Positions 26,381 to 61,454 of a stretch of DNA of 64,000 nt are shown piece after piece. Made by a program: the position numbers and the translations under genes. The notes below the pieces were generated by a model. It worked only from the letters and a program-made list of their open reading frames with translations. It made no database searches and had not been told where the DNA came from. The DNA is from Terriglobia bacterium (lineage in GTDB: Bacteria > Acidobacteriota > Terriglobia > UBA7540). Position 1 is the stretch's first letter, and every line of letters starts with the position of its first letter. The stretch lies in contig DASTAW010000048.1 in assembly GCA_035712365.1 (NCBI GenBank), positions 186,001-250,000 of the forward strand, read 5' to 3'.

Positions 26381-29300
26381 TTAATTCGGAAGCGACACGC
26401 GATCTTCCAAGAGAACAAGTTCGCGCGAATTCAGTAGTTCCTTGAGTGTATTTACGAGCAACCTCTGAATATGATTCCCAGTTCGCTCGAAACCGAAAAT
26501 CCGTGCCACATACAAAAGCAACTTGTCACGTTCGATACTCAAGCTATCGCTTGTGAGTTTTTTTAACGCCACAGTGATTTCTTCGGTTGGAATTTTCTCG
26601 ATTGAGCGTCGTGACCGGCCATCCTCTGGGTTTGGGTGTCTGACTGCTACCTGAAAGGTTTCCGCTGCGGGCCAGAGGAACTCGCCTTGAATTCGTAGTA
26701 GTTTCTCTCGGCTAAGAGATCTCCATGCGGATTTGACCGCATTCATCATTCGCTCGCCGACACGTTCTAATTCCCACGCTTGCGCCAAGCGTGTGGCTGC
26801 CAAGTCTTTGTGGATCGGGCCTTCTATGTCAACGATTTGAGACATCATACGCTTCAAGAGTGGCTGAGCATCAGGATCATGGAATTGCAAGCGCGTCTGT
26901 GGTGCCCGGACCATGCACACTCTGTACGTTTGTACCCAGGTTGGAAGCACGAACTTCTCTTCAGCTTCAGAGATCTCTCTTTCAATGACAATCGGCTCGT
27001 TACCCAGATTCGGCCCGTTCGAAACATGCATCAGCGAAAATCGTCGCGTTCCCTTTAGCTCTTCAAGGGCAGTTTCGATTGCTTGTCTGAGCCGGCCAAC
27101 TTCGAGGTCATTGCGGGTTACCCAATCTGGAGACCAAATTCGATGGATTCTCCAGCCAAGTCTCTCAAGAATCTGCTGACGAATGCGGTCCCGATCTCTT
27201 GCGGTTGCGGATGAATGGTATGAAGCGCCATCGCATTCAACACCCAGTATGAATCTGCCTGGATTTGACGGGTCAACTACCCCAAGGTCAACTCGAAATG
27301 AACTACATCCCACCTGGGGAACAACGGTAAAGCCAAAGCTGCGAATCTTTGTTGCCACTGATTGTTCGAATGGGGACTCGAACTCGCCTTCCTCGATTCG
27401 CATGGCAAGGGCATCTGGACCTCGCTCTGCGAAATCCAAATAGCGGTGGAGTACTCGGACGCCTTCCCTGTTAACTTCACTAAGGTCAAAATCAGAGGCG
27501 CGAATCGAGCTAACAACAATCACCTTCTTTCGAGCGCGAGTAACTGCGACGTTCAATCGCCGCTCACCTCCATTGCCGTTCAAGGGGCCGAAGTTCATCG
27601 TGATGCGACCAAACCTGTCTTTACCATATCCGACGCTAAAGATGAGAACATCCCGCTCATCCCCCTGCACGCTCTCCAGGTTTTTCACAAAAAACTTCTC
27701 GAACCTGTCGGCGGCGAAGTATCGCTCAAGCTCCGGCTTTTGTCGTCGGAACTGCTCAAGGTGATTCTCGATTGTATCGGCCTGGGAAACGTTGAACGTC
27801 ACTACACCGAGCGATTGGTCTGGATATCGCAAGAGATGCTCTTCCACCAAGCCGACAACTTTCTCTGCCTCCCGTACGTTATCTCTTTTCCCACCACGGT
27901 CATACACACCGTCAGGAACAAAAACGAATTTAACGCCGAAAGCCTCATCCTCTTGCAACCACGACGGGAAGGTTATCAGGCTAAAGTCATAAAAAATGGA
28001 GTTCGAAAACGCAATCAAAGATTCATGCTCGCTTCGGTAGTGCCATTTTAATTGGCGCTGTGGCATTACCGCCGCGCAAGCGTCGAGGACGCTGTCGAAT
28101 ACATCAAAAGCCTCCATTGCATTAGGATCGTCCGATTCGTCGGACAGATCATCCGACATCCCTTGTTCAAAGAATGTTGTTGGCGGCAGTTGCCTGTTGT
28201 CCCCGCACACCACCAACTGCTTCCCCCGATAAACGGAACAAATCGCATCCTCTGATCTCAGTTGGGAAGCTTCATCAAAAATCACGAGATCGAATTTCAT
28301 TTTTTCGGGGTCAAGAAACTGGCTGACCGAAATTGGGCTCATCAGCAAGCAAGGCTTCAATTGCGTCAATAAATTCGGGATAAGGACGAACAGTTTTCGG
28401 AGCGGAAGGTGGCGTCTCTGTTTGTTTGCCTCCTTCAACAGTACACCAAGTTCTCCTCCTGGGATTACCACACTCGATGCTGGTCGCAGGCGATTGATTT
28501 CCCTTATGACGCTATGGACGCCTTGCTCCCAATGCTTTCTGTCTAGCTCGCGAAATTCCGCAATGAGTCTTTCGTGGTTCTCACCACGGAATGCCCCGAG
28601 GCAGGGATCATCGGCGAATTGGAAATTCAACCACGCCTGAAGCAATGACCTTCTCAGGACACTCGGAAGATCACTTGCGCGAAGAGACAGGTGTTTTGTC
28701 GTCAGGTTCTCAAAGAATTCTTCGAGCCCGAAAGCCTGGAAGCCATGCTCTAGTTCACAAAAGTCAACCCAATCCCTGAGTGTTTCAATCTGCTGAGACA
28801 TCTCGCGCAGACGTGACAGCATGGCAACAAAGTCAGCCTCTAAAAGCGGAGTTCCCTCCGCCGCAGGATAGCCGCTTACAAAGCTTCGTCCCAATGTTTG
28901 GAGACCGATTCGAACTCGGTTTAGGTCACCATCCAATGCCTCATGCGTGGGAGCGTTTTCTTTTCCCGCGATCAATATGCCCAGAAGACTCTGGGGGATT
29001 TCTCTGTTCCCCATGTGAGCCCGGAATTCCGTAGCCCATTGAACTGCCGTGAGAACCTCGTCCCATGCCGTCTCTATTCCTACGAACCGATGGCCAAAAT
29101 GCTCCTTCAGGCGTTGAGACTCCGCAGCGGTCTCTACTTCGATCGTTCGCAACTCACTCAGGTGCTCAAGGTCACTCATAATTCGTTGACACGTGATGCC
29201 GTCGGAAGACCGTGCACAAGGTAAGATTGTGTCCATCAGGTCGCAGAATTGTCTCAATGCGTCTCCAACTTCTTCGGACCACATTTTCAATTCCTCTAGT

Positions 29301-32011
29301 GGTCTTTCCGCTATCGGCATTTCGGGACCATCCGAGAAATTCGGGGAGAGATATGGTTTGGCTTGGGGGAGTTTCTTTTCCCAGTCAGCTATGCTTTCCT
29401 TCAGACGCGGCCCTGTAGTGCGCAATTCAATCGTAGCGAGGCCTCGGGCGGACGCTTGATGGATAAATTGACTGGGAAGTGGCTGCAAAGCTGCCAACCT
29501 GACCAATTCCTGTGAATTACCCAAGGCTCGCGACACACGATCAAAGTCCGTTTCGAAACCCCTGAAGTAACCGCCAAGCAACTCCTTGTACTGGGAGAAT
29601 TCTTTAATGAGTCGCTCCTCTCGGTCCTTTAGGGCCTGTACCCTGCGGAGGTCGGTAAGGATTGACGATGGAAGCTTTCCGTCTTTATGGAGGCGTCTGA
29701 TTTGTCGTTTGGACCTGAAGTAGGAGGGACGGAAAATTCGGAGAATGGAGGAATAAGGCCCTGAAAACTTTTCGATTAAACTCTTGACCGGCAGTTCGAG
29801 AATCTCCGGCTCATATTCGGCAAGCAGGGCTTTTCTCTCATTGTTCCTGCTGTCGAAGCCCTCTCGAATGGAGGGCAACGATTGTGCCACATCTCTCTGC
29901 CTAGTCAATTCCAGCCATTTGTCATCGGGCCTATCCTCGGACTCACATAACTCCGCGATGCTCACGAGTTGGCGAAGACGTGGGAGATTCAGGTCGCTGT
30001 TCAGCCCCAAGGACTGCTGAAGGATATTGCCGTCCCTGATCCAGCTCAATGCACGTATTGAAAGCTGCTGTGCCCATTCAAGCAGCAACCCTCGATTCAT
30101 GACAAAGCTTGTATCGTCCAACAGAGACCGGCCCACAATCGTGGTCAATTTCTGCAGCGCGCGATTGAGGCGATCACAGAGATTAGCAGGGAGCGACATC
30201 AAGGCCGCAGTGTACATAGAATCCAGAGCATCTCGATGCTCATTGTGGATTTTCTTGAGCCCCAGATATCGCTCCGTTTCTTTCGTGATTTCAGGTAGGC
30301 TCGAACTGAGGACCCACTGCTGTTCGATACCTGGGCAATTGGAGAGCATCCGGGAAGTCTTCAACAGCCACTCGACGGCGGGGAGTGTTAGCGGTTCTTC
30401 TAAACCGAGCAAATTCGCGAGACGGGCTGAACTTTGCCGTAGCGCGGAGACAGACGCCATGCATCCGGCGATTTCCCCTTGTAGCTCAGTTTTGATTGCC
30501 AGGGAGAAGGCCATAACCGTACAGCCAAACCACAGGAAATTCCGACCGGCCACTGCTACTTGCCAAAGAGGCTCCAACCGCTTGGCCAGCTGTTCCGCAC
30601 CATCGAAGCTCTCTGGGGTAAGGAGGGATGCGTCGAATACGCCAGTCGGAACATAGGCAACGTCGTTTAGTTGAGCGACCGATCCCAGGACATCGAAGGC
30701 ACTACATCCGAACGGCCGGCGAACCAAGTGAAGCGAATGAACGTAGTCATTCAGTTTCTTGCGTCTCTCAACGAGCTGCTTTGCCTCAAAATCCGTTAGG
30801 CCTTTCTTCGGCTGAAGCTGCTCTGAGTGCGTCTTATAGAGCTCCTGAATTACTTCGCGCTTGTTGGCCTTGTGACTGTGGAGTTGGAGGCAATAATGGT
30901 CAAGTCCGGCCTTTTGAAGTCGGTCGGAGACAACTTCAAGCGCCGCCATCTTTTCACTTACAAACAGAACGCTTTTCCCTCTGGCAATGAATTCTGAAAC
31001 CAAATTCGTAATCGTCTGACTTTTCCCGGTTCCCGGCGGGCCCTGGATGACCAGGTTGTTCCCTGCTTTGACTGCCTCGATGCAAACCAATTGACTACTA
31101 TCTGCGTCCGCGACAAGAAAGCTCGTGTCCGGTGAAATCTTCTTATCTAGTTCGCGTGGGTCTGGCGGCTCACTCGCGGGAGACTCCTTTCCTTCTTCGC
31201 ATAAGCATCGGACAATCGAATGCGCTTCGAGCGCACTACCGTGACTTTTCAGATCGTGATAAATGACCAGCTTGTGGAAGGAAAACAGTCCCAACCAACA
31301 ATCGTCGCTGACTGTCCACTCGTATTTCGCTATTTGACTTCGGAAGACATTAAGGAATTTTTCAAGTGGAGCTACCTCCCAATCATCAGGAACGGGCGGC
31401 AGTTCGATCTTGAAATCATCACTGAGCTTTACAGCGAGTGCAGGATTGACAACGATTTCCTCATCAGCTGGCCACAGTTCGAAGGGGTCATTCACCGAGT
31501 CTCGCCTGAGCTCCACCGGTACCAAGAGTATCGGTGACTTTATAATTTCGCTTTGCTCGATTTCCTTCCACTCCAGCGTGCCGAATGTGATGAACAGAAT
31601 TCGAACTCCGCGCTCCTCAAAATCCGTTCGAGACCGGCGATAAAGGTTCCGCAAGATGGCGCGGAGCCTTGCGCCATCCTTAACATCTGTCACAAGCTCA
31701 TCGTTTCGGCGATCCAGAGAGGCCCCACCCCCCGGTGATCCAGGCTGGTCGCCGCCTGCCGGTTTGAGCAACAGAGGTTGTAAATCGTGTGAATTGGCAG
31801 CTACGGTAAGCGTCTCATTCTCGTCTGGCGGCATAAAGAATTGCCAGTGCTTCTCTTCATTCGCAAGGCGGTTAAAAATGTCAGCGATCGTGGGGTCGAT
31901 GATCTTCAGGGTTGATGCACGCGTCCGCGCGAAATACAGGGATCGGTTCCGGCGAGAAAGATCAACTATCTTTCGCTTCCACTCCTCAACGCGCTGGGCA
32001 ACCCGACTCAT
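26381..32011 (-). CDS. DUF4011-helicase-Vsr-like nuclease-DUF3320 protein (Hhe-type defence)
   Basis: A giant cytoplasmic protein of about 1876 residues. Order of parts: DUF4011 N-terminus (RVEEWKRKIVDLSRRNRSLYF), superfamily-1 helicase with Walker A GPPGTGKS (about 324-331) and Walker B/DEAS (IFDEASQL, about 1243), late helicase motifs QGDERDV and LNVAVTRARKK, a Vsr/MTES_1575-like endonuclease domain starting FEQSVATKIRSFGF (about 1547) with D in FRVDLGVV and the ECDG motif (about 1591), and a DUF3320 C-terminus (IEGPIHKDLAATRLAQAWE, about 1725 on). This architecture was reported as a single-gene antiphage system (Hhe, Gao et al. 2020). Defence function here is inferred. The ATG at 32011 begins at the conserved domain. 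A TTG-started extension to 32182 is open but unlikely. Confidence 0.88.
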   Translation of the reverse strand: MSRVAQRVEEWKRKIVDLSRRNRSLYFARTRASTLKIIDPTIADIFNRLANEEKHWQFFMPPDENETLTVAANSHDLQPLLLKPAGGDQPGSPGGGASLDRRNDELVTDVKDGARLRAILRNLYRRSRTDFEERGVRILFITFGTLEWKEIEQSEIIKSPILLVPVELRRDSVNDPFELWPADEEIVVNPALAVKLSDDFKIELPPVPDDWEVAPLEKFLNVFRSQIAKYEWTVSDDCWLGLFSFHKLVIYHDLKSHGSALEAHSIVRCLCEEGKESPASEPPDPRELDKKISPDTSFLVADADSSQLVCIEAVKAGNNLVIQGPPGTGKSQTITNLVSEFIARGKSVLFVSEKMAALEVVSDRLQKAGLDHYCLQLHSHKANKREVIQELYKTHSEQLQPKKGLTDFEAKQLVERRKKLNDYVHSLHLVRRPFGCSAFDVLGSVAQLNDVAYVPTGVFDASLLTPESFDGAEQLAKRLEPLWQVAVAGRNFLWFGCTVMAFSLAIKTELQGEIAGCMASVSALRQSSARLANLLGLEEPLTLPAVEWLLKTSRMLSNCPGIEQQWVLSSSLPEITKETERYLGLKKIHNEHRDALDSMYTAALMSLPANLCDRLNRALQKLTTIVGRSLLDDTSFVMNRGLLLEWAQQLSIRALSWIRDGNILQQSLGLNSDLNLPRLRQLVSIAELCESEDRPDDKWLELTRQRDVAQSLPSIREGFDSRNNERKALLAEYEPEILELPVKSLIEKFSGPYSSILRIFRPSYFRSKRQIRRLHKDGKLPSSILTDLRRVQALKDREERLIKEFSQYKELLGGYFRGFETDFDRVSRALGNSQELVRLAALQPLPSQFIHQASARGLATIELRTTGPRLKESIADWEKKLPQAKPYLSPNFSDGPEMPIAERPLEELKMWSEEVGDALRQFCDLMDTILPCARSSDGITCQRIMSDLEHLSELRTIEVETAAESQRLKEHFGHRFVGIETAWDEVLTAVQWATEFRAHMGNREIPQSLLGILIAGKENAPTHEALDGDLNRVRIGLQTLGRSFVSGYPAAEGTPLLEADFVAMLSRLREMSQQIETLRDWVDFCELEHGFQAFGLEEFFENLTTKHLSLRASDLPSVLRRSLLQAWLNFQFADDPCLGAFRGENHERLIAEFRELDRKHWEQGVHSVIREINRLRPASSVVIPGGELGVLLKEANKQRRHLPLRKLFVLIPNLLTQLKPCLLMSPISVSQFLDPEKMKFDLVIFDEASQLRSEDAICSVYRGKQLVVCGDNRQLPPTTFFEQGMSDDLSDESDDPNAMEAFDVFDSVLDACAAVMPQRQLKWHYRSEHESLIAFSNSIFYDFSLITFPSWLQEDEAFGVKFVFVPDGVYDRGGKRDNVREAEKVVGLVEEHLLRYPDQSLGVVTFNVSQADTIENHLEQFRRQKPELERYFAADRFEKFFVKNLESVQGDERDVLIFSVGYGKDRFGRITMNFGPLNGNGGERRLNVAVTRARKKVIVVSSIRASDFDLSEVNREGVRVLHRYLDFAERGPDALAMRIEEGEFESPFEQSVATKIRSFGFTVVPQVGCSSFRVDLGVVDPSNPGRFILGVECDGASYHSSATARDRDRIRQQILERLGWRIHRIWSPDWVTRNDLEVGRLRQAIETALEELKGTRRFSLMHVSNGPNLGNEPIVIEREISEAEEKFVLPTWVQTYRVCMVRAPQTRLQFHDPDAQPLLKRMMSQIVDIEGPIHKDLAATRLAQAWELERVGERMMNAVKSAWRSLSREKLLRIQGEFLWPAAETFQVAVRHPNPEDGRSRRSIEKIPTEEITVALKKLTSDSLSIERDKLLLYVARIFGFERTGNHIQRLLVNTLKELLNSRELVLLEDRVSLPN

Positions 32012-32194
32012 CTGAATTGAACCTGTGGCGCTAAAACCGAAATGTGCAATCCTTCCGCTGCTATCGCCAGCGACGGGGAAGCGCCAGATTTCCAAGAGAA
32101 AAGTCTCGGCAGCACTGTGCTGACCGTCGGGGGTAAAAGATATCGCTTTCTCCGGTGCATGTCTAGACGATGTAAACAACAAACAAGTAAGCGT

Positions 32195-49783: not shown

Positions 49784-49880
49784 TTCTCGTGTAAGGCAGG
49801 CAAATGGAACTCAAGAGGATTCAGCCTGTTGGCTTTCTCTGCTCAACCTGGTGTATTCCGTCCGCCTGACGAAGCTTGAG

Positions 49881-50648
49881 ATGCAGAGTCTTTCAATTGT
49901 TATCCCGGTTTACAACGAGGAGGGCAACATCGGTCCACTCGTGGCCCGCATTTCGGAGGCCATGTCTGGCTGGGAAGGCGCCGTTGAAATCCTGTTCGTC
50001 GACGACGGCAGCAGCGACCATACTCTGGAACTGCTGAAGGAATCCCAGGCTAAAGACTCCCGGATTCGCATTGCCCATTTCCACAAGAATATGGGCCAGA
50101 CCGCCGCGATGGCTGCCGGTTTCCGGCTGGCGCGCGGCGAGGTCATCGCAACCATCGATGCCGACCTGCAAAACGATCCCATGGAAATCCAGCGCCTGGC
50201 AGGGATGCTGAACAACTGGGACCTGGTGTGTGGCGTCCGCGCACAGCGTAAAGACACGCTTTGGAAGCGCATTTCGTCGCGCATCGGGAACGGCTTCCGT
50301 AATTGGGCAACGGGCGACAACATCGCTGACACCGGCTGCACTCTCAAGGCCTACCGGCGCGAATGCCTGGACGGCCTGGAGCTTTATAAGGGGATGCACC
50401 GCTTCCTCCCCACACTGATCCGGATGCGTGGATACCGCGTGACGCAGGTGCCAGTGTCGCATCATCCGCGGCTGGCGGGAAAAACCAAGTACGGGACCTG
50501 GGGGCGGCTGGTGAAAGGGCTTGAAGACGTTTGGGCGGTGCGCTGGATGAAAAAAAACCACATCGGTTTCGAATCCAACCTCCAACTGATCGAACGGCAA
50601 CCCGTTGAATGCGGTAAAGTCCACATGGATGGCGCAGTGGAAAAGTGA
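49881..50648 (+). CDS. Family 2 glycosyltransferase (ArnC/DPM-like)
   Basis: Membrane-associated GT-A glycosyltransferase of about 255 residues. It begins SLSIVIPVYNEEGNIGPLV, then has the nucleotide-sugar site VDDGSSDHT, the D-x-D-type IDADLQNDP, and the acceptor-side region ending KTKYGTWGRL. The pattern matches polyprenyl-phosphate sugar transferases (dolichyl-phosphate mannose synthase, ArnC). It lacks the C-terminal membrane pair that some members have. It probably makes a lipid-linked sugar used by the GT39-type transferase 56 bp downstream. The ATG at 49881 begins the domain; a GTG at 49851 is an alternative. Confidence 0.88.
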   Translation: MQSLSIVIPVYNEEGNIGPLVARISEAMSGWEGAVEILFVDDGSSDHTLELLKESQAKDSRIRIAHFHKNMGQTAAMAAGFRLARGEVIATIDADLQNDPMEIQRLAGMLNNWDLVCGVRAQRKDTLWKRISSRIGNGFRNWATGDNIADTGCTLKAYRRECLDGLELYKGMHRFLPTLIRMRGYRVTQVPVSHHPRLAGKTKYGTWGRLVKGLEDVWAVRWMKKNHIGFESNLQLIERQPVECGKVHMDGAVEK

Positions 50649-50704: not shown

Positions 50705-52558
50705 GTGAGTGGTCAAAGCAGTTCAAATCTAGTTGAAGCTTCGCCTGCGAATACAACCCGCGGTGGACTTCCCGCCATTCACGTACTCGTGCTTCTGGTG
50801 GTGGCTGGCTGCATGTTTTTTGCCGGCATTGGGCGTCTTGCCCTGATTGAGCCCGATGAAGGAAGGAACGCGGAAGTCGCCCGTGAAATGCTTGCGGGAG
50901 GGGACTGGATTACTCCCCACTTTAACAACTTTTCCTATCTGGACAAACCTCCTGTCTTTTTCTGGGCCGTGGCCTCATCGTTTAAGCTAGCGGGATTGTC
51001 CGAAGCGAGCGCGCGCTTTCCCTCGGCACTGGCAGCTCTCCTGACGGTATTTCTTGGGTGGTTGCTGGCCCGCCGGATGTTTGAAAAATCCACGGCTCTT
51101 TACGCCGGAATTGTCCTATCGACTTCGCCACTGGTGGTTGTGTTTGCCCGCGACGTCATCTTCGACATGACTCTGACCCTATTCGTCACATCAGCGATGG
51201 TCTGCTATTGGTTCCGGGAAAGCGGCCCTGAACACCAAAAGTTGCTCGATGTTCTGTTTTTCTCGGCCATGGGCCTGGCAACCCTCACGAAAGGTCCCGT
51301 AGGATTTCTGCTGCCGTTGCTATCCATCGCAGCCTACCAGGCCCTCCGCGGGAAACTCGCCCGCCTGAAGGACTTGAACTGGCTGCTGGGCGTGGCGGTG
51401 TTCTTCGCGATAACGCTCCCCTGGTTTATCGCAGTTTCGATCCGGCACCCGGACTTTCCGCGATACGCCTTTTGGCAGGAGAGCCTGCAAAGGTTTGCCA
51501 CGGGACATTCTCACCGCGCCGGTCCCATCTATTATTACCTGATCATCTATCTTGCTGGCTTCCTGCCCTGGAGCTTTTTCCTGCTCTACGCCGCCATCCA
51601 TCGAGTCAGGCGATGGAGGGAGCTCCGGCAGGAACACGCCGCTCCAATGCTGTTCCTACTGAGTTGGGCAGGTGTAATCTTCGTCTTCTTCACGATCTCG
51701 CGGTCCAAGCTTCCTGGTTACTTTCTACCTGCTATGGTCCCGCTCAGCGTGCTGATGGCAAAAGTGTGGACGGCTTGCGGACCTGAGCGGGAGGACCGGA
51801 CAGCCGATTGGCTGACTGGCGGTTTTGCCACACTGATCGGCTTGGGGATCATCGTTGCGGCGGTCCCTCACTTTCAACACCAGCTTTTCCCTCGCGGGCG
51901 ACTCGAGGGAAAAATGCCGCATGATGTCCTCATTTTGCTGGGGCCCGCAATGCTTTATACAGGAATCATCCTCGCTGCCTTGGGGGTCATCGGACGAAAT
52001 CTCTGTGCGCGAGCCAGGCAGAAGACCCCCACCGCAATCATGTTCGCCTTGCTGGCGTGCTGTTTCCCGCTGATGCTGGTGCGGTGGTTTCGCCCGCTTG
52101 AGATTTTTGCTTCCGCAAAGTCGAGTCGCGCCCTTGCAGACACCATTCTCGACAGCCCCCAGAGAAGCTTTCCCATCTACGGCTATTATTACTTCCGGAC
52201 GGGGCTCCCCTTTTATCTTCGAAGGCCGGTGGGCCTGATTTCCTCCACAGCGGATGAATTGACCAGCAATTACATCGTGACGCAGTGGCCGCGAATTAAG
52301 CAGGAAGCCCAAAACGGACAATTGCCCCCGCTTCTTGCTCCTCCGGAGATGGACGGTATGCCCCTGGTGATGGATCTGAACCAATGGCTGGCGAAACGGC
52401 CTTCAACACCTGAACTCGTGCTGGTAAGAAACAACCAGGTGAAGGGCCTCGCCAACGCCGTTCAGGCGATGGATCCCATGTGGACTGGGTGGCAATATTC
52501 CGTCTGGGAAATACCAGCCAGCTCACGCTCCACCAGTGGTCAGCAAAAGGGAAACTGA
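50705..52558 (+). CDS. ArnT-like family 39 glycosyltransferase
   Basis: Polytopic membrane glycosyltransferase of 617 residues with about twelve hydrophobic helices. The first periplasmic loop has the ArnT/PMT signature: DEGRNAEVAREMLAGGDW followed by NNFSYLDKPPVFFW, with the acidic pair E-P-D-E just after the first helix. These enzymes move a sugar from a polyprenyl-phosphate carrier to lipid A, protein or glycan in the periplasm. The neighbouring GT2 gene would supply the donor. The start is GTG, ten bases after GAGAGG. It is probably in one transcript with GT2 and the asparagine-synthase gene. Confidence 0.88.
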   Translation: MSGQSSSNLVEASPANTTRGGLPAIHVLVLLVVAGCMFFAGIGRLALIEPDEGRNAEVAREMLAGGDWITPHFNNFSYLDKPPVFFWAVASSFKLAGLSEASARFPSALAALLTVFLGWLLARRMFEKSTALYAGIVLSTSPLVVVFARDVIFDMTLTLFVTSAMVCYWFRESGPEHQKLLDVLFFSAMGLATLTKGPVGFLLPLLSIAAYQALRGKLARLKDLNWLLGVAVFFAITLPWFIAVSIRHPDFPRYAFWQESLQRFATGHSHRAGPIYYYLIIYLAGFLPWSFFLLYAAIHRVRRWRELRQEHAAPMLFLLSWAGVIFVFFTISRSKLPGYFLPAMVPLSVLMAKVWTACGPEREDRTADWLTGGFATLIGLGIIVAAVPHFQHQLFPRGRLEGKMPHDVLILLGPAMLYTGIILAALGVIGRNLCARARQKTPTAIMFALLACCFPLMLVRWFRPLEIFASAKSSRALADTILDSPQRSFPIYGYYYFRTGLPFYLRRPVGLISSTADELTSNYIVTQWPRIKQEAQNGQLPPLLAPPEMDGMPLVMDLNQWLAKRPSTPELVLVRNNQVKGLANAVQAMDPMWTGWQYSVWEIPASSRSTSGQQKGN

Positions 52559-52609: not shown

Positions 52610-54526
52610 ATGTGTGGCATTTGCGGTATTCACAATATGTTTCTGCGGCCGCTCGACAACCCCGAACTGGTTGATCGAATGTCGGCCCGGCTCAGGCATC
52701 GGGGACCGGACAGCCAGGGCAAATTCCAACTCCCTCACCTCGCGTTAGCCATTCGGCGATTAAGCATTATCGACCTCAAGACTGGCGACCAGCCGCTATC
52801 CAACGAGACCGGCGACATCAACCTGGTTTTCAACGGAGAGATCTACAATTACCGCGAGCTTCGCAAGGACCTTCTTGAACGCGGTCACATTTTCAAGACT
52901 CAGTCCGACGGCGAGGTGATCGCCCATCTTTACGAGGAAGCGGGACCAAAATTCGTACGTGAACTGAACGGCATGTTCGCCATCGCACTCTGGGACGATC
53001 GCGAAAAGCGGCTGGTTCTGGCGCGCGACCGGGCGGGGGAGAAACCGCTTTACTATTGGGAATCTGACGACACGTTGTTGTTTGGGTCGGAGATAAAAGC
53101 GCTTTTAGAACATCCACACGTTAGCAGGGAAATTGATCGCGAAGCTCTTTCGCAGTATTTTTTTTATGGTTACTTCCCATCTCCCCGATCGGTTTATTCC
53201 GACATCAAAAAACTTCCTGCCGCGCACCTGATGGTGGTTGAAAACCAGCAAATGCACATTGAGTGCTACTGGAAACTTCAGGCCTATCTGCGGAAGCCGG
53301 AGGCGGCAAGTCTTAGCCGCACTCAGGAAGAAGAAGCCTGTGAAGAGCTACGCGAAAAGTTGAGCGAGGCCGCTGTCTCGCGCCTGGTCAGCGATGTTCC
53401 CATTGGAGTATTTCTCAGTGGCGGCATCGATTCCTCCATCGTGGTTGCCGCAATGAGTGAACTTTCGCCCGGGAATGTCAACAGCTTCTCTGTGTCGTTT
53501 CCAGAACGCTCGTTTGACGAGGGAGAATACGCCGAGTTCGTGGCCAGGCATTTCAACACCAGGCATCACGTCCTCACGGCCGACGACAAAGCCATGCGCG
53601 GCGCACTGTTGACCCTGGTGGACCATCTCGACGAGCCGATGGCCGATCCCGCCATCCTTCCAACCTATCTGCTCTCATGTTTCGCGCGCCAACACATCAA
53701 GGTTGCATTAAGCGGAGAAGGCAGTGACGAACTGTTTGGCGGATACCCCACTTACCTCGGGGCTCGGGCGGCGAAATATTACCTGATGCTTCCCGATTTC
53801 CTTCGCCGGCAGGTTTTTGATCGGGTTCGGGAACTCTTGCCGGTCTCTTCAGACGCCGTGCCCAAAGGTCTGTTCCTCCGCCGCTTTTTGACACATGTCG
53901 AAAAAGATCCGGCGGTGCGCCATCATTCGTGGTTCGGCATGTTTTCCGCGGACGAACTGGAGCAGCTTTACAGCCCGGCGTGGGCGGGCCCACACTCCCC
54001 GATCGGCGTTATTTTCAGTCCGCTGTCGCGGGTCCTGGAAGGCGCCCGCTTTGATGAAGTGCTGGGGGAAATGCTCTATCTGGATTTCCGGATGTATCTT
54101 GAAGACAACCTGTTGGTCAAGGTGGACCGCGCCAGCATGGCCTGTTCGCTGGAAATGAGGACCCCTTTCCTCGACCATCGCCTCATCGAGTTTGCGGCGG
54201 GCCTGCCGACCGACCTGAAGGTGCGCGGCTTCCAGACCAAATATATTCTGAAGAAAGCCGTAGAAAAGTGGTTGCCGCCCAGGATCGTTTACAGGCAGAA
54301 GCGCGGCTTCACCGTACCCGTGGCAGGCTGGCTTCGCAATGAACTACAGCCGCTTGTGGCTGAAACGCTGGAAGAAGGAAAGCTGAAGCGCCAGGGGCTG
54401 TTCAACAGCGCGTATGTCCAACAGTTGATTCGCGAGCATTCAACCGCCCAGGTTGACCACCGGAAAGCCCTATGGACGCTGCTTTGTTTCCAGCTCTGGT
54501 ACGATCGGTGGAACATGGGAGACTAG
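52610..54526 (+). CDS. asnB: Glutamine-hydrolysing asparagine synthase-like protein
   Basis: A 638-residue two-domain amidotransferase. The N-terminal class-II glutaminase starts MCGICGI with the catalytic Cys2 and continues with RLSIIDL and FNGEIYNYRELR. The C-terminal synthetase has the pyrophosphate loop FLSGGIDSSIV (about 266-276) and LSGEGSDELFGGYP. Such proteins make asparagine, or in surface-polysaccharide clusters amidate other carboxylates. Its place among glycosyltransferases suggests the latter, by inference. The next gene (transglutaminase-like) starts 5 bp after its stop. The ATG lacks a strong ribosome site. Confidence 0.9.
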   Translation: MCGICGIHNMFLRPLDNPELVDRMSARLRHRGPDSQGKFQLPHLALAIRRLSIIDLKTGDQPLSNETGDINLVFNGEIYNYRELRKDLLERGHIFKTQSDGEVIAHLYEEAGPKFVRELNGMFAIALWDDREKRLVLARDRAGEKPLYYWESDDTLLFGSEIKALLEHPHVSREIDREALSQYFFYGYFPSPRSVYSDIKKLPAAHLMVVENQQMHIECYWKLQAYLRKPEAASLSRTQEEEACEELREKLSEAAVSRLVSDVPIGVFLSGGIDSSIVVAAMSELSPGNVNSFSVSFPERSFDEGEYAEFVARHFNTRHHVLTADDKAMRGALLTLVDHLDEPMADPAILPTYLLSCFARQHIKVALSGEGSDELFGGYPTYLGARAAKYYLMLPDFLRRQVFDRVRELLPVSSDAVPKGLFLRRFLTHVEKDPAVRHHSWFGMFSADELEQLYSPAWAGPHSPIGVIFSPLSRVLEGARFDEVLGEMLYLDFRMYLEDNLLVKVDRASMACSLEMRTPFLDHRLIEFAAGLPTDLKVRGFQTKYILKKAVEKWLPPRIVYRQKRGFTVPVAGWLRNELQPLVAETLEEGKLKRQGLFNSAYVQQLIREHSTAQVDHRKALWTLLCFQLWYDRWNMGD

Positions 54527-54531
54527 AACGC

Positions 54532-55206
54532 TTGCGCCCCCGCAAATTCAACCCGAACTCGCCTTACGACCTGCCTCCGCGCGAGGCTTTCACTCCCCAT
54601 GAGTGGGAGATCATCCAAACCTGCCGGACACCACGCCAGGTGCAGAAATTTATCCGTACGTTCACCTATAATCGTGAAAGGAACGGTGAGACGCTGCGGA
54701 GTTTTCGTGTCACGCTCAGGCATGCAACATCTCATTGCCTCGAGGCGGCTTTCGTAGCAGCAGCTATCCTGGAACAGCACGGCTATCCGCCGCTGCTCCT
54801 GGACCTGGAATCCAAAGACAAGCTGGACCATGTGGTATTTGCTTTCCGCCATCGCGGCAGATGGGGATCTGTCGGACAGTCCCGCGACTACAGCCTTCAG
54901 GGGCGCAAACCTCTCTACCGCACCCTCCGCCACCTGGTGATGAGTTATGTTGACCCCTTTGTCACCGAACAGGCAAGAATCATCGGTTATGCCCTCGCTG
55001 ATCTCCGAGAGCTGGTCGCCACGGACTGGCGATTTTCCCTGAAAAATGTGTGGAGCGTCGAAGAGGCGTTAATTGCCCTTCCTCACACCAGGCTGAAAAC
55101 CTCCAATCGTCGGTACGTGAAAGTCCTGCGGCGTTATCGAGCTTTCAAGGAAAGATTTCCCCAACGCCAGATTACGTTCTATTCAGACCGCCATAAGTGG
55201 ATGTAA
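54532..55206 (+). CDS. Transglutaminase-like (papain-fold) protein
   Basis: A protein of about 224 residues with a cysteine-histidine pattern of the transglutaminase/papain fold: SHCLEAAFVAAAILEQHGYP (candidate nucleophile Cys with following helix), then LDHVVFAFRHRGRWG (His), then GQSRDYSLQGRKPLY (Asp). No named family was recognised. It could be a peptidase, an amidase or an inactive relative. The TTG at 54532 follows GGGAGA at a good distance and lies 5 bp after the asnB stop. In-frame starts inside asnB (ATG 54472) are possible. It is tightly linked to asnB and probably translated with it. Confidence 0.65.
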   Translation: MRPRKFNPNSPYDLPPREAFTPHEWEIIQTCRTPRQVQKFIRTFTYNRERNGETLRSFRVTLRHATSHCLEAAFVAAAILEQHGYPPLLLDLESKDKLDHVVFAFRHRGRWGSVGQSRDYSLQGRKPLYRTLRHLVMSYVDPFVTEQARIIGYALADLRELVATDWRFSLKNVWSVEEALIALPHTRLKTSNRRYVKVLRRYRAFKERFPQRQITFYSDRHKWM

Positions 55207-55369: not shown

Positions 55370-55915
55370 TTATCGGGGGCGCTCAAGCGAGGTCACTATA
55401 AGATCAGCCTTGTTAGCCTGAATGGATGCCCGCTGCAGGTCTGTCTCCTGAAGCGCCTTCTGGGAATTCTGGAGGAACCCGCGCGCATCGTCGAGCATTT
55501 TCCGCTGGGACGGTGACAACGATTCGCGGCTGAGAGCAGCGATCCTCTTCTCAATTCCCTGCTGCGACTGGACTATCTGATTCTGCAAAGCTATCGCCTG
55601 GCCAGAATTGACGGCAGAGTGCAGCGCGGGAATCTCGACACCCGGGGGCTCTTCCGGTGGCGATTTCGTCTCAGCACGTCTGGGAGGTGAAGGCTTGCTG
55701 GGTGCAGTTTCTGGAGGAGGCTGCAGAGGGGCCGGCTGCTTGGCTTCAAGAGGCGCCGGCGGGGCGGGAGCCTGCACAATAATGCTCTGGTCTGACTGCG
55801 AGGGCGTCGCCGCCGGCGGAGGCGAGGGGACGTAGACAACCTGAGGCCCCGTCTGCCTCTTGAGGCAGCCGCCAAAAATCAAGGCTATACCGACTACTGC
55901 AACTTTCCAGCTCAA
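55370..55915 (-). CDS. Putative proline-rich lipoprotein
   Basis: A 181-residue protein. The N-terminus reads VAVVGIALIFGGCLKRQ with lipobox G-G-C, so it should be lipid-anchored. Residues 25-95 are proline/alanine-rich and disordered. The C-terminal part is a helical coiled-coil-like segment (ALQNQIVQSQQGIEKRIAAL, SPSQRKMLDDARGFLQNSQ). No family is recognised. The first possible start is a TTG at 55915 with only a weak upstream purine run. It converges on the transglutaminase-like gene. Confidence 0.65.
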   Translation of the reverse strand: MSWKVAVVGIALIFGGCLKRQTGPQVVYVPSPPPAATPSQSDQSIIVQAPAPPAPLEAKQPAPLQPPPETAPSKPSPPRRAETKSPPEEPPGVEIPALHSAVNSGQAIALQNQIVQSQQGIEKRIAALSRESLSPSQRKMLDDARGFLQNSQKALQETDLQRASIQANKADLIVTSLERPR

Positions 55916-56653: not shown

Positions 56654-58492
56654 CTAAGCAGGCAAGACAATTCGAAACGTTGTCCCTTGTTCCGGTTCGC
56701 TTGAAAAGTCGATGGAACCGTTATGCAATTGAATAATCCGGTAGGCCATCGCCAGACCCACACCTGAGCCGCCCGGTTTGGTTGTAAAAAATAGCGAGAA
56801 GATCTTGGGCTGCACATCGGGGGGAATGCCCACGCCCTGGTCTTCGATTTCAAGTTCCACCCGGCGGTCCGCTTTCCTTGACCTGATTTTCAGCGTTCCT
56901 CCGGATGGCATTGCCTGGCAGCCGTTCAGCACCAGGTTCAGAAGGGCCTGCTTAAACAGATCGCGATCGACCTTCAACCTGGGGACGGGACCATCCTTCT
57001 CGATCTTCAGCCGCACATGGTTCTGCCGCGCCTGGGGCTCAGCGAGAGTGAAGACTTCCTGGAGCATCTGCTCCAGATCGGTATCGGTCAGCCGCAACTC
57101 CACAGGCCGCGTAAAATCGAGGAACGTCTTCACCACACGGTCGAGCCGCCAGATCTCTGAGGAAAGCGTGTCAAGCTGGGGCTTAACGGCAGTACTGTTT
57201 TCGGCAAGTTTCGCCTTCAGAATTTCCAACTGCAGGACCATTGCGTTCAGCGGGTTCTTCACCTCATGCGCAACTCCGGAGGTAATGCGGCCGAGCGCCG
57301 CAAGCCTCGATGCCACGGCGATCTGGTCCTCCAGTTGGGCGCGTGTGCCGGCGTCCCGCACCGTTACCAGTGCGCCGACAGATTCCCCTCCCGTCTCAGC
57401 AAACTGCACGCTGGCCAAGATGCGGGGGCCTTCATTGTCATCGCCATCACCTTCATTCGGTGACTCCCAGGTAACAGGCACCCGCGCCACAAACGCCTCG
57501 CGGAGCACGCGATCCATGGGATGATCGCTCCAGAAAATTTCCGCCGCCGTTCGGTGCAGCAACAGTTTGGGGTCTTCGCCCAGGAACCGCTCCACGGCAG
57601 GCGTGGCAAGCACCAACTGGTCCTGCCTGTCAAAAAGCATCAGGCCGTCCGCGAGGTTGGAAAAAAGCTGGTCAAGATTTTCCTTAAGCTGAGTAAATGC
57701 TGTTTTCTCCCCTCGAATCTGCTCGCCCAGCAGATTCAGCTTGGAGGAAAGGATGCCCCATTCATCCTTACGGTCCACCATCAGCGGTTCGGGATTTTCT
57801 CCTCGCGCCATCCGCTCAACGCTGCGGGAGATGGTTTTGAGGGGACGCAGTACCCCATAAGAGAGCAGGCTGGCGGACAGAGTCGCCAGGATGAGCGCCA
57901 CAATGGCAAGCAGCAACGCCCGGTGCAATTCAGGCGTCAGTTCGCTGGCGACAAACAGCGTTGAGACGCCTACGCGAACATCCAGCGGACGGTCGCCCAG
58001 CATGCTGGAGTGGACAACCTCATAGATTTGCTGTGGTCCGTAGATGACATGGAGCTGCTGCAGTATGCCCGAGTTCAGGAGTTGGTCAAACGATGGCGCC
58101 GGAGTGAACTGCTTTCCCACTTGAGCAGGGTCGTTATGGGCAAGAATAATCCCCTTTTGATCTGTTATCGCTACGTAATAGATGGTCGGTGAGTTGCCCA
58201 CCGCGGATTCAATGGTGGAACTGAGGTTGGGGTCTTCTGCCAGCCGGGTCCCGACGAACTGGAGCACCGCCGGAGTATCTGAGGGATCGACCCCGGCCGG
58301 GAGATAACTCTGGGACAGCACGGTCTGGGTCTGATGGTAAACTTCATCGGCCACAAACGACCCTCTTCTCCCCACAGCGACGAGGGCCTCATGAGTGATG
58401 ATAAAAAGGTAAAGGGCCGAGATGGCCAGCACCACGACCAGCACCAGCAGCCCGATCAGTGCCGTCAGCTTAGCTTTGAGGCTCAGCCTCAT
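56654..58492 (-). CDS. NtrB-type sensor histidine kinase with HAMP and PAS
   Basis: Membrane sensor kinase of 612 residues. Two hydrophobic helices (about 12-34 and 193-215) flank a periplasmic domain of about 155 residues containing a Cache-like stretch (IYYVAITDQKGIILAHNDP). A HAMP linker (LRPLKTISRSVERMARGE), a PAS domain (NLADGLMLFDRQDQLVLAT), the phosphoacceptor box GVAHEVKNPLNAM with H409, and the ATPase N and G boxes (NLVLNGCQAM, DQGVGIP, GGSGVGLAMA) follow. It overlaps the downstream NtrC-type regulator gene by 23 bases (58470-58492), being downstream of it on the minus strand, so the two form a coupled pair. Confidence 0.92.
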   Translation of the reverse strand: MRLSLKAKLTALIGLLVLVVVLAISALYLFIITHEALVAVGRRGSFVADEVYHQTQTVLSQSYLPAGVDPSDTPAVLQFVGTRLAEDPNLSSTIESAVGNSPTIYYVAITDQKGIILAHNDPAQVGKQFTPAPSFDQLLNSGILQQLHVIYGPQQIYEVVHSSMLGDRPLDVRVGVSTLFVASELTPELHRALLLAIVALILATLSASLLSYGVLRPLKTISRSVERMARGENPEPLMVDRKDEWGILSSKLNLLGEQIRGEKTAFTQLKENLDQLFSNLADGLMLFDRQDQLVLATPAVERFLGEDPKLLLHRTAAEIFWSDHPMDRVLREAFVARVPVTWESPNEGDGDDNEGPRILASVQFAETGGESVGALVTVRDAGTRAQLEDQIAVASRLAALGRITSGVAHEVKNPLNAMVLQLEILKAKLAENSTAVKPQLDTLSSEIWRLDRVVKTFLDFTRPVELRLTDTDLEQMLQEVFTLAEPQARQNHVRLKIEKDGPVPRLKVDRDLFKQALLNLVLNGCQAMPSGGTLKIRSRKADRRVELEIEDQGVGIPPDVQPKIFSLFFTTKPGGSGVGLAMAYRIIQLHNGSIDFSSEPEQGTTFRIVLPA

Positions 58493-59840
58493 ATTCCTTC
58501 AACTTGTTGTGAAGAGTCTTCAAACTGATGCCCAACATTTCAGCAGCACGGGTTTTGTTGTTACTGGTAAAGGTCAGCGTTTCGAAGATCAGCCGGCGCT
58601 CCGCCTCCCCAACTGTCATCCCTGGGCGAAGATGAAGATCGTCCCCCATTGCAGCCGTTGAAGCCTTTCCAAAATCAGCAGGGAGATCAGTGGTGAGCAG
58701 GATGTCTCCCTGGCTTAGAACGACCATGCGTTCCAGCGTGTTACGGAGTTCACGAATGTTGCCGGGCCACGAATGGTGGCGGAATGCTTCCAGTAAGTTG
58801 CCATCCACGGCTTTCACCGAAGTATGGTGCTTGCGATTCAGGTCTTCGATGAGCGCCTGGGTCAGAGGTTCCAGATCGCCCAGATGCTCGCGAAGCGGAG
58901 GCATGGTAATCTGGACCACGTTGAGGCGAAAGTAAAGGTCGTTTCTAAGTTCTCCCTTCGAAACGGCCTCTTCGGGGACCTTGTTGGTTGCGGCAAGCAC
59001 CCGAACATCAACAGAGGTCTCGCTTTTGCTGCCCAGACGCCGGAGCTTGGAGTCTTCGAGGACACGCAAAAGCTTGGCCTGTGTCTGCGCCGGCATCTCG
59101 CCAATTTCGTCCAGCAGAAGCGTGCCGCCGTCGGCAAGTTCAAAACAACCCATCCGCCTCTCCACAGCTCCCGTAAAAGCACCCTTCTCGTGGCCGAAGA
59201 TTTCGCTCTCCATGAGGCTTTCGGGAATCGCGGCACAGTTAACGGCCACAAACGGCTTGCCTTTCCGCGGGCTCAGCTCATGGAGGGTGCGAGCTGCCAA
59301 TTCCTTCCCGGTCCCGCTTTCACCCGTTATCAAAACACTGGCCCGCGAGGGCGCCACGGCGGCGATAATCGACATGACCTCCTGCATCTTCTTCGACCGC
59401 CCCACCAACTGCCCCAAAATGCCCGCTTCACGCAGCCGCCGATGCGCGATTTCGAGCTGCAACTCGCTTTCGCGGCGCGCCAGGCAATTGCGGAGTTCAA
59501 CCTGCAGGCGCTTCGGATCAACGGGTTTTTCAAGGAAGTTAAAGGCCCCTAGCTTGGTGGCCTCCACGGCTTCCTCGATAGTGCCCTGGGCCGTCAACAT
59601 AATGAAAGATACTTCAGGACGCGATTCGCGCATCTGGCGCAGGAGATCCATGCCGCTCATTCCGGGCATGCGAAGGTCCGAAATAATAACGCTGGGATTA
59701 AACGCTCCCGCCTGGTCAAGGGCTTGCTGACCATCGGCAGCGATTTCAGCCTCGTAGCCCCACACCCTTAACAGCTCCGCCAGACCTTCTCTCTCGCTGG
59801 CGTCATCGTCAACCACGAGGATCTTGTCATGTCGCGGCAC
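58470..59840 (-). CDS. NtrC-family sigma-54-dependent response regulator
   Basis: A 456-residue activator with a complete receiver (acidic D11-D13, phosphoacceptor D55 in IISDLRMPG, T in MLTAQG, K in LEKPVD), an AAA+ domain with Walker A GESGTGKE, the sigma-54-contacting GAFTGA loop, Walker B LLLDEIGE and the arginine-finger region, and a C-terminal Fis-type helix-turn-helix (TRAAEMLGISLKTLHNKLKE). It acts with the kinase encoded next. The start is GTG with AAGGAG six bases upstream. The target genes probably include part of the surrounding envelope cluster, though no -24/-12 site was found by eye. Confidence 0.93.
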   Translation of the reverse strand: MPRHDKILVVDDDASEREGLAELLRVWGYEAEIAADGQQALDQAGAFNPSVIISDLRMPGMSGMDLLRQMRESRPEVSFIMLTAQGTIEEAVEATKLGAFNFLEKPVDPKRLQVELRNCLARRESELQLEIAHRRLREAGILGQLVGRSKKMQEVMSIIAAVAPSRASVLITGESGTGKELAARTLHELSPRKGKPFVAVNCAAIPESLMESEIFGHEKGAFTGAVERRMGCFELADGGTLLLDEIGEMPAQTQAKLLRVLEDSKLRRLGSKSETSVDVRVLAATNKVPEEAVSKGELRNDLYFRLNVVQITMPPLREHLGDLEPLTQALIEDLNRKHHTSVKAVDGNLLEAFRHHSWPGNIRELRNTLERMVVLSQGDILLTTDLPADFGKASTAAMGDDLHLRPGMTVGEAERRLIFETLTFTSNNKTRAAEMLGISLKTLHNKLKEYEAEPQS

Positions 59841-60049: not shown

Positions 60050-60095
60050 GTGCGTGCTTTCCAGCTCAAAGGCTCACGGACAGCTAACACCCGCT

Positions 60096-61454
60096 ATGGA
60101 AATCCATCTCCTGATCGCTTCACAGGACAAGTCGCTTATAGACACGTGCTTCAGCGTCTCGAAACTGATGGGGCTTGAAGCCACCGTGGCTGGAGCGCCT
60201 TTTGAAGCTCTCAACACCGTCAAGGCCGGTGGAATTGACATCATTCTGGCCGACGCTCGGATGCCGGGCCTCGTTGTAGCTGAACTGATCAAAGTCGCCC
60301 GTGGGGCATCGCCCGGACCAGAGGTTATCGTCCTTGCAACGGACGGCGATGCCGCCCTTGCCCGCCACGCCGTAGATCAAGGCGCTCAGGAATGCCTGAT
60401 CGGTCCGTTCGCAGGAAACGATCTCGAACGCCTGCTGAGCCGGTTGATCCAGCAAAGAGAGATGGCCGCTGAAAACCGCTTGCTTCGCGAGCAGCTCCAG
60501 ACACGACAAGGGCTGGGAGCTTTGATTGGCGCGTCCGCCAGGATGCAGAGGGTCTATGAGATGATCCTCAAAGTGGCTGCCAAACGGCACCCCGTGCTGG
60601 TGCTTGGAGAAAGCGGGACTGGCAAGGAACTTGTGGCGCGGGCGATCCATTTTTATGGCCCCTGGCGTGAGCTTCCATTCGTTCCCGTGGATTGCGGCGC
60701 ACTATCTTCAACACTGGTCGAAAGCGAACTGTTCGGACACGTACGTGGCGCATTCACAGGGGCCAGCCAGAACCGTGCGGGGCTGCTGGTGGCGGGCGGA
60801 AGAGGTACCATCTTTCTGGATGAAATTGCGGAACTTCCGGTGGAACTGCAATCGAAACTGCTGAGGGCCATACAGGAACGCGAGGTGAGGCCTGTTGGCA
60901 GCAACCAGCGCGTGCCGATCGAGGCCCGCATCATCGCGGGAACCAATCAGCACCTGGAAGGCGCTATCACCCGCGGCACTTTCCGCAAGGACCTGTTCTT
61001 CCGGCTCAATATTGTTTCCATTAAGTTGCCGCCGCTGAGGGACCGCAAGGGGGATATTCCGCTGCTGGTGCACCATTTTATCGACCGTTACGCTGGAAGT
61101 TCGGGCGACATCCGCGACATCTCTTGCGACGCGATGAGCAGGCTGATGAATTATGACTGGCCTGGCAATATCCGTGAACTGGAGAATTGCATTCAGCGCG
61201 CGGCGGCACTCGGATCATCCCCTGAAATTCAGGTGAGAGACCTGCCTTCGACTCTTCTGTGCGCGATGCGTAACGAAAGCGGTAAGCAGCGGTTTTCCAC
61301 ACTGCGGGAGCTGGAAAAGGATGCGATTCGGAGGGCCCTGGAAATCACGGGCGGTGACCGCCTTCGCGCCGCCAAACTGCTCGGAATCGGCAAGACCACG
61401 GTGTACCGGAAAATCAAGGAGTACAACCTGGAAGGTACAGTGGGTCCCCAATAG
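60096..61454 (+). CDS. NtrC-like sigma-54 activator with degenerate receiver
   Basis: A 452-residue activator of sigma-54 promoters. The AAA+ domain is intact (GESGTGKE, ESELFGHVRGAFTGAS, IFLDEIAE, FRKDLFFRLNIV), and the C-terminal Fis-type helix-turn-helix reads LRAAKLLGIGKTTVYRKIKE. The receiver domain is unusual. D53 is present in ILADARMPG, but the N-terminal acidic pair is reduced (IASQDKS) and the conserved lysine of the K-P motif is replaced (CLIGPFAG). It may therefore act independently of phosphorylation. It is divergent from the NtrC/NtrB-type pair, with no kinase of its own. It is followed by GT4 and GMD genes on the same strand. Confidence 0.88.
   Translation: MEIHLLIASQDKSLIDTCFSVSKLMGLEATVAGAPFEALNTVKAGGIDIILADARMPGLVVAELIKVARGASPGPEVIVLATDGDAALARHAVDQGAQECLIGPFAGNDLERLLSRLIQQREMAAENRLLREQLQTRQGLGALIGASARMQRVYEMILKVAAKRHPVLVLGESGTGKELVARAIHFYGPWRELPFVPVDCGALSSTLVESELFGHVRGAFTGASQNRAGLLVAGGRGTIFLDEIAELPVELQSKLLRAIQEREVRPVGSNQRVPIEARIIAGTNQHLEGAITRGTFRKDLFFRLNIVSIKLPPLRDRKGDIPLLVHHFIDRYAGSSGDIRDISCDAMSRLMNYDWPGNIRELENCIQRAAALGSSPEIQVRDLPSTLLCAMRNESGKQRFSTLRELEKDAIRRALEITGGDRLRAAKLLGIGKTTVYRKIKEYNLEGTVGPQ

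Follow-up and report, generated by a model that had tools for sequence, protein, structure and literature searches.

A predicted vasohibin-like cysteine protease encoded behind asnB in a glycosyltransferase gene row of Acidobacteriota

Genes at the locus

The window analysed here is a stretch of 64,000 nucleotides (nt) from a Terriglobia bacterium of the phylum Acidobacteriota (GenBank assembly GCA_035712365.1, contig DASTAW010000048.1, positions 186,001 to 250,000, forward strand), and our subject is a gene in it for a 224-residue protein that begins 5 base pairs (bp) past the stop codon of an asnB-type gene. An earlier reading, made from the sequence alone, had placed the two genes at 52610-54526 and 54532-55206, coordinates that we confirm, and had described them as a coupled pair in which an amidotransferase is followed by a papain-fold protein of no recognisable family. 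Profile searches and structure prediction identify the second protein as a putative vasohibin-like cysteine protease, and its gene stands last in a same-strand row of four, with gaps of 56, 51 and 5 bases; the two genes upstream of asnB are the glycosyltransferase neighbours that the sequence-only reading had pointed out.

49851-50648, + strand: GT2 glycosyltransferase gene of the polyprenyl-phosphate sugar transferase type, first in the row (Pfam PF00535, 1.4e-31)
50705-52558, + strand: ArnT/PMT-type GT-C membrane glycosyltransferase gene (Pfam PF13231, 1.2e-20; PF02366, 1.9e-17)
52610-54526, + strand: AsnB-type glutamine-dependent amidotransferase / asparagine synthase gene (PF00733, 1.7e-101; PF13537, 6.8e-47)
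54517-54521, + strand: GGGAG, a possible ribosome-binding site of the protease gene, as read from the letters
54532-55206, + strand: predicted vasohibin-like (CPR-C4 family) cysteine protease gene, 224 amino acids (phmmer, profile, predicted structure, conserved residues)

The protease gene starts with TTG, the GGGAG ending 10 nt ahead of it, and an alternative in-frame ATG at 54472 would make the gene overlap asnB. In the two congeneric genomes, with open reading frames taken from their first start, asnB and the protease gene are separated by 5 and 6 nt. Comparison with a congener (L040) revealed 19, 15 and 75 substitutions at codon positions 1, 2 and 3, respectively, a bias indicating that the frame of 224 codons is a real gene under selection. 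No signal peptide was apparent by eye, and the computed isoelectric point (pI) of the protein is 10.4.

The 224-residue protein resembles CPR-C4 and the vasohibins

A phmmer search against solved structures matched the protein to CPR-C4 (7ob6) at an E-value of 1.2e-22 and to the human vasohibins at 0.003 and weaker, and a search with a 40-row profile gave 8.3e-53 for CPR-C4 and 5.8e-6 for VASH1. The sole Pfam match at E ≤ 1 was Vasohibin (PF14822, 3.8e-5), a model that 58 of the 78 members of the window's clade of relatives (described below) also match at E ≤ 0.01. The AlphaFold2 model built on the 78-row alignment had a mean predicted local distance difference test score of 91.8 and a predicted template modelling score of 0.88, and when this model was submitted to Foldseek, CPR-C4 chains took ranks 1-5 and vasohibin chains ranks 6-28. 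A second aligner (VIA) superposed it on 7ob6_B with Z 23.8 (195 residues, 2.6 Å, 27% identity) and on VASH1 with Z 12.6 (150 residues, 3.3 Å, about 17% identity), the third fold family listed being that of LapG (Z 9.3, 11% identity). As sequence matches and fold ranks both lead to CPR-C4 and the vasohibins, we assign the protein to the CPR-C4 family as a predicted vasohibin-like cysteine protease, and the view that it lacks a recognisable family is given up.

Members of the clade also matched the NCBIfam model antiphage_ProA (40/78 at E ≤ 0.01, best 4.7e-5), as did 2 of 10 members of the other clade at E ≤ 1 (best 0.0013). The matches that were detailed, for seven of nine members, scored 10-18 bits where the model requires 1500, and covered some 50 residues around the Cys; we took these short, low-scoring matches as a common superfamily signature and rejected membership of antiphage_ProA. 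Neither AsnB nor the protease was matched by PADLOC at E ≤ 0.01, and in the openly licensed literature we found no paper joining vasohibin and phage defense; a role of the protease in defence is still conceivable.

A vasohibin-type active site and a Ser-Arg clade

The sequence-only reading had proposed a Cys-His-Asp triad and had named loss of the Cys or the His in homologues as something that would count against it. Both residues (Cys69 and His100) are invariant, together with Ser117, in all 40 homologues of an alignment termed A1 and in all 78 rows of the window's clade. Within that clade Tyr46, Cys69, His100, Ser117, Arg118 and Leu122 are each kept in 78/78 rows, Leu122 being present in 39/40 rows of A1 as well, and alignments pair the six residues with Y134, C169, H204, S221, R222 and L226 of VASH1, so that the vasohibin Ser-Arg pair S221-R222 recurs as S117-R118 throughout (78/78). 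A profile built from the clade alone aligns Cys69 with the Cys of KCLEA in the vasohibins. In the accessible parts of earlier studies, changes of the VASH2 counterparts of Cys, His, Ser, Lys and Arg are reported to abolish or strongly reduce detyrosination (PMC6642083), K168, H204, S221 and R222 of VASH1 are named as important (PMC6937246), and the CPR-C4 active site is given as C61, H93 and the carbonyl of L115 (Cornish et al., 2022; PMC9108980). The predicted active site is therefore of the vasohibin type, Cys69-His100-Ser117/Leu122 (carbonyl), and the Cys-His-Asp triad is rejected, as the third vasohibin position is held by Ser117 and by no Asp. Two acidic residues, D91 and D99, align with the zinc-site residues D83 and D92 of CPR-C4 (numbering of the part of PMC9108980 available to us), D91 being replaced by Ser in 31/78 clade members.

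The relatives fall into two clades, which a 93-row tree with a midpoint root splits with support 100/100. Position 118 of A1 follows the same line, with Arg in 30/30 rows of the window's clade and Asn (9) or Asp (1) in the 10 class-level rows, and the median pI is 10.3 in the window's clade vs 9.4 in the other, CPR-C4-type clade. The window-clade profile finds all listed vasohibin chains at E-values from 8.5e-5 to 0.0033, whereas the 10-row profile of the other clade finds CPR-C4 at 2.1e-61 and VASH1 from 0.47 upwards, a comparison that is only suggestive because the profiles differ in depth (78 vs 10 rows). The window's clade also shares a C-terminal signature: Trp223 occurs in 78/78 rows and the protein ends exactly one residue later in 54/78 and within two in 72/78, giving a Trp-Met/Leu-type end (Trp223-Met224 in the window).

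These features raise the idea that the window's clade might be a prokaryotic carboxypeptidase of the true vasohibin type that trims the C-terminal residues of a specific acidic-tailed protein, i.e. tail trimming akin to tubulin detyrosination in bacteria and archaea, with the conserved Trp-Met/Leu end perhaps serving as substrate mimic or docking tail. We consider this rather unlikely and put it forward as speculation.

Linkage of the protease gene to asnB

Across the window's order, the protease was found in 33/40 genomes, including 18/18 of those of good quality, and an AsnB orthologue (E ≤ 1e-160) likewise in 33/40. One protease-bearing genome (G028), whose contig ends at the gene, was dropped. 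In 27 of the 32 informative genomes AsnB lies directly upstream of the protease on the same strand, with aligned ends at most 0.81 kilobases (kb) apart, and in two others it lies 2.1 kb (G005) and 3.2 kb (G027) away. One of the 27 (G017) is counted by virtue of a partial, two-frame AsnB at a contig edge and is outside the 33 orthologue genomes. Within the window's own family, the linkage postulated by the sequence-only reading holds. In two genomes (G033 and G037) AsnB is present and we could find no protease; as these are 77 and 75% complete, with contigs that stop about 100 and 173 bp past AsnB, they carry no weight either way. G037 belongs to a sister family and has GT2-ArnT-AsnB. As a side observation, some loci show extra open frames between AsnB and the protease, of 519 codons in L051 (G005), 141 in L048 (G004) and 122 and 106 in L064 (G020).

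Neighbour retention was counted over 29 family loci, using for each neighbour the loci with enough flank. AsnB was kept in 20/24, ArnT in 17/20 and GT2 in 15/18, compared with 8/15 for a BON gene, 12/20 for a lipoprotein-like gene, 5/16 for an HNH gene and 5/11 for a kinase gene (all at E ≤ 1e-6, a threshold at which fast-evolving neighbours may be missed). Since AsnB, ArnT and GT2 are kept more often than the flanks, the four-gene row outlasts its surroundings.

The products of the row can be placed in broad classes. AsnB has 638 residues and begins with MCGICG, so that it has the Cys of class-II glutaminases and its glutaminase half is intact, as the sequence-only reading had noted. It passes the model for glutamine-hydrolysing asparagine synthase (TIGR01536) with 495.8 bits (cut-off 267.1) and falls below that for the XrtA/PEP-CTERM amidotransferase (TIGR03108; 600.7 vs 816.9 bits). 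A search for exosortase (PF09721) in the window's genome, which is 98.89% complete, gave 0 matches at E ≤ 0.001 (1/14 control genomes were positive), and a link of AsnB to XrtA/PEP-CTERM was dropped in the absence of an exosortase match. The GT2 protein scores 151 bits on the ArnC model NF007986 and the GT-C protein 233 bits on the ArnT model NF009784, below the respective cut-offs of 529 and 567.

Distribution and gene context beyond the family

In the phylum the protease occurs in 62 of 297 sampled genomes, always as a single match, and three of these matches contain an internal stop. Scanning named genomes yielded 543 confirmed relatives, of which the best 80 were kept; the titles of these 80 mention Acidobacteria, NC10/Methylomirabilota, Armatimonadetes, Chloroflexi, Dormiibacterota, Euryarchaeota, Obscuribacterales, Nitrospirae, Gemmatimonadetes and Bacillota. 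The bins of the window's clade carry labels that include Acidobacteria, Methylomirabilota, Armatimonadetes, Chloroflexi, soil Euryarchaeota and Obscuribacterales, and single phylum labels may be wrong because most relatives are metagenome bins. Viral contigs gave 43 pattern matches and 0 relatives at E ≤ 1e-3, and the plasmids searched gave no match to the protease. The proteases of NC10 nest among those of the window's family in the tree, with modest support at the fork (83/95), and no AsnB adjoins them (tblastn, E ≤ 1e-6), a combination that would be compatible with a horizontal transfer of only the protease gene.

Of the 80 named-genome loci, 26 were set aside as belonging to the family and 54 lie outside it. 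Among 66 loci outside the family, examined up to 6 kb from the gene, no neighbour cluster was common to different phyla when the labels Armatimonadota, ANGP1 and Sysuimicrobiota were counted as one group. Six neighbour clusters spanned two groups, all within Acidobacteriota, and two of these are read from opposite strands of one stretch of L076. Because clusters were formed at 32% identity over 60% of the length, neighbours that evolve fast may have escaped.

Is the protease a passenger or a regulator in a glycan-type operon?

The reading that we prefer, with a probability of roughly 60%, is that the 224-residue protein is a cytosolic vasohibin-like cysteine peptidase that was added, as passenger or regulator, to a glycan-type operon in this family. 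In such a mechanism His100, which Ser117 and the Leu122 backbone carbonyl would keep in place, would activate Cys69, and Arg118 and the very basic protein as a whole would suit a protein substrate that offers an acidic stretch or a free C-terminus and is then trimmed. The protease would probably be translated from one message with GT2, the ArnT-type transferase and AsnB, and these three together might build a lipid-linked sugar, amidate it and transfer it. In one genome of the family (G030), the GT2-ArnT-AsnB unit is intact and followed by 6 kb of sequence with no protease, whose gene is found far off; together with the absence of AsnB beside the protease outside the family, this points to a lineage-specific passenger or regulator and not to one half of an obligate pair.

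AsnB (tblastn, E ≤ 1e-6) was near the protease in 0/54 loci outside the family, 44 of which have at least 3 kb of upstream sequence, and in 0/13 class-level loci, three of them from family f9 at 56-58% protease identity; the coupling proposed by the sequence-only reading is thus borne out as adjacency within the order and fails beyond it. Several observations weigh against the preferred reading. In three of the 32 informative genomes, of the same family (G007, G023 and G030), AsnB lies elsewhere than the protease, and the contexts outside the family gave no support for a link of the protease to glycan genes. The region holds 3 promoter-like sites against a shuffle mean of 2.2 (standard deviation 1.2) and 9 terminator-like sites against 6.5 (3.1), counts so near the shuffle level that the sequence lends no support to transcript limits. 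As to the enzyme itself, its PF14822 score of 23.5 bits is 0.5 under the gathering cut-off of 24, the position of VASH1 K168, before the catalytic Cys, is occupied by His in 75/78 and Gln in 3/78 clade members, and the superfamily also includes enzymes other than proteases.

Three other explanations were considered. The McjB/McjC pair of lasso-peptide clusters, in which a transglutaminase-like protein adjoins an AsnB-like protein, bears a likeness to the window's pair, and by analogy AsnB might close a macrolactam and the small protein act as a B2 leader peptidase. The two small proteins share a broad fold class, 5/78 clade members weakly match Transglut_core3 (PF13471, best 8.4e-4) and 2/78 match the lasso B2 model NF033537 at E ≤ 0.01; the three members detailed on this model reach 14-16 bits (cut-off 33) over 30-39 residues with the catalytic Cys or its flank, weak matches that show why the pair recalls McjB/McjC. 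The window protein itself, however, has no NF033537 match at E ≤ 1, AsnB reaches 255.7 bits on the cyclase model NF033535 (cut-off 525), both upstream neighbours are glycosyltransferase genes, and no locus examined outside the family showed the AsnB-protease pair. A precursor gene would not fit into the 5-bp junction, and inspection by eye of the small frames (at least 20 codons) that follow the protease gene, conservation not being part of that check, picked out no candidate. With both family models failed and the junction too short, we reject a lasso cluster, as the sequence-only reading had already been inclined to do, and regard this explanation as hardly credible. It is also improbable, though less so, that the two genes form a dedicated pair in which trimming by the protease brings AsnB, or another product of the operon, to maturity or inactivates it. 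The same-strand adjacency described above would suit such a pair, but the C-termini of AsnB, ArnT and GT2 vary among orthologues, so that no common tail for trimming is visible, and these tails were rejected as substrates on that ground. Moreover, the catalytic Cys of AsnB follows the start Met directly, making a propeptide unneeded, and AsnB persists without a linked protease in the three genomes named above.

A serious rival, to which we assign a little less than an even chance, is that the protein is a stand-alone peptidase and its place behind asnB an inherited order without functional meaning. The patchy spread through the phylum, with a single match per genome, and the lack of a neighbour cluster common to different phyla favour such a peptidase; against it stands the four-gene order, which outlasts its flanks within the family down to 53-60% protease identity. 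If the row is inherited order only, the result amounts to an ordinary gain in annotation.

Relation to characterised proteins

The enzyme family as such is already known. CPR-C4 has been solved (PDB 7OB6, 7OB7 and 7PJO) and assayed, with protease activity demonstrated on casein, and the available part of that report describes a positively charged pocket and uninformative gene neighbours (Cornish et al., 2022; PMC9108980). The window protein is akin to CPR-C4 in its predicted fold, in the positions of Cys, His and Leu, in size, in its bacterial origin and in a gene context that is uninformative outside one family; it differs in having Ser117-Arg118 where CPR-C4 has Thr-Asn, and in the Trp-Met/Leu-type end of its clade. 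CPR-C4 is described, in the same part of PMC9108980, as a homodimer with a zinc site.

Acidobacteria have been counted in the vasohibin-like family since 2016, and, as far as the accessible text of that study goes, these acidobacterial relatives have Cys-His-Ser/Thr, like the window protein, and no gene neighbourhood is given for them (Sanchez-Pulido and Ponting, 2016; PMC4866520). With the human tubulin carboxypeptidases VASH1 and VASH2 the window protein shares the fold core and the counterparts of Y134, C169, H204, S221, R222 and L226; unlike them, it has His in place of K168, at about 17% identity overall, and this bacterium has no known tubulin-tail substrate. LapG (4FGP/4FGQ) has a similar fold, with the Z-score and identity given above, but is described in the accessible parts of PMC6642083 and PMC4866520 as a periplasmic protein with a canonical Cys-His-Asp triad.

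Two things seem to be added here: a clade that combines the Ser-Arg pair with a Trp tail, and a row of four genes in a single family of Acidobacteria. On neither did we find an openly licensed paper. Nor did the accessible portions of the literature on vasohibin relatives yield a physiological substrate for a prokaryotic member; a stable four-gene row in one bacterial family is a place to look for one, and the Ser-Arg clade may model the origin of tail trimming better than CPR-C4 does.

Other genes of the window

Downstream of the protease gene, between 55370 and 59840, the other strand carries lipoprotein-, HNH-, histidine kinase- and NtrC-type regulator-like genes, all named by eye from the sequence. 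The first is a Pro-rich lipoprotein-like gene (55370-55915, - strand), the one retained in 12/20 family loci with room for it. Two NtrC-type regulator genes, also recognised by eye, are divergent beside the histidine kinase gene (58470-59840, - strand, and 60054-61454, + strand), and in L080 two NtrC-type regulators match each other at 34% identity. Farther off, at 26381-32182 on the - strand, lies a gene for a protein of 1933 residues with DUF4011, split AAA helicase, MTES_1575 nuclease and DUF3320 domains. It scores 1390 bits on the NCBIfam anti-phage model ProA (cut-off 1500) and 907 of 2000 on Hhe, and is by its domains a predicted large anti-phage-type helicase-nuclease slightly below the limit of the named family.

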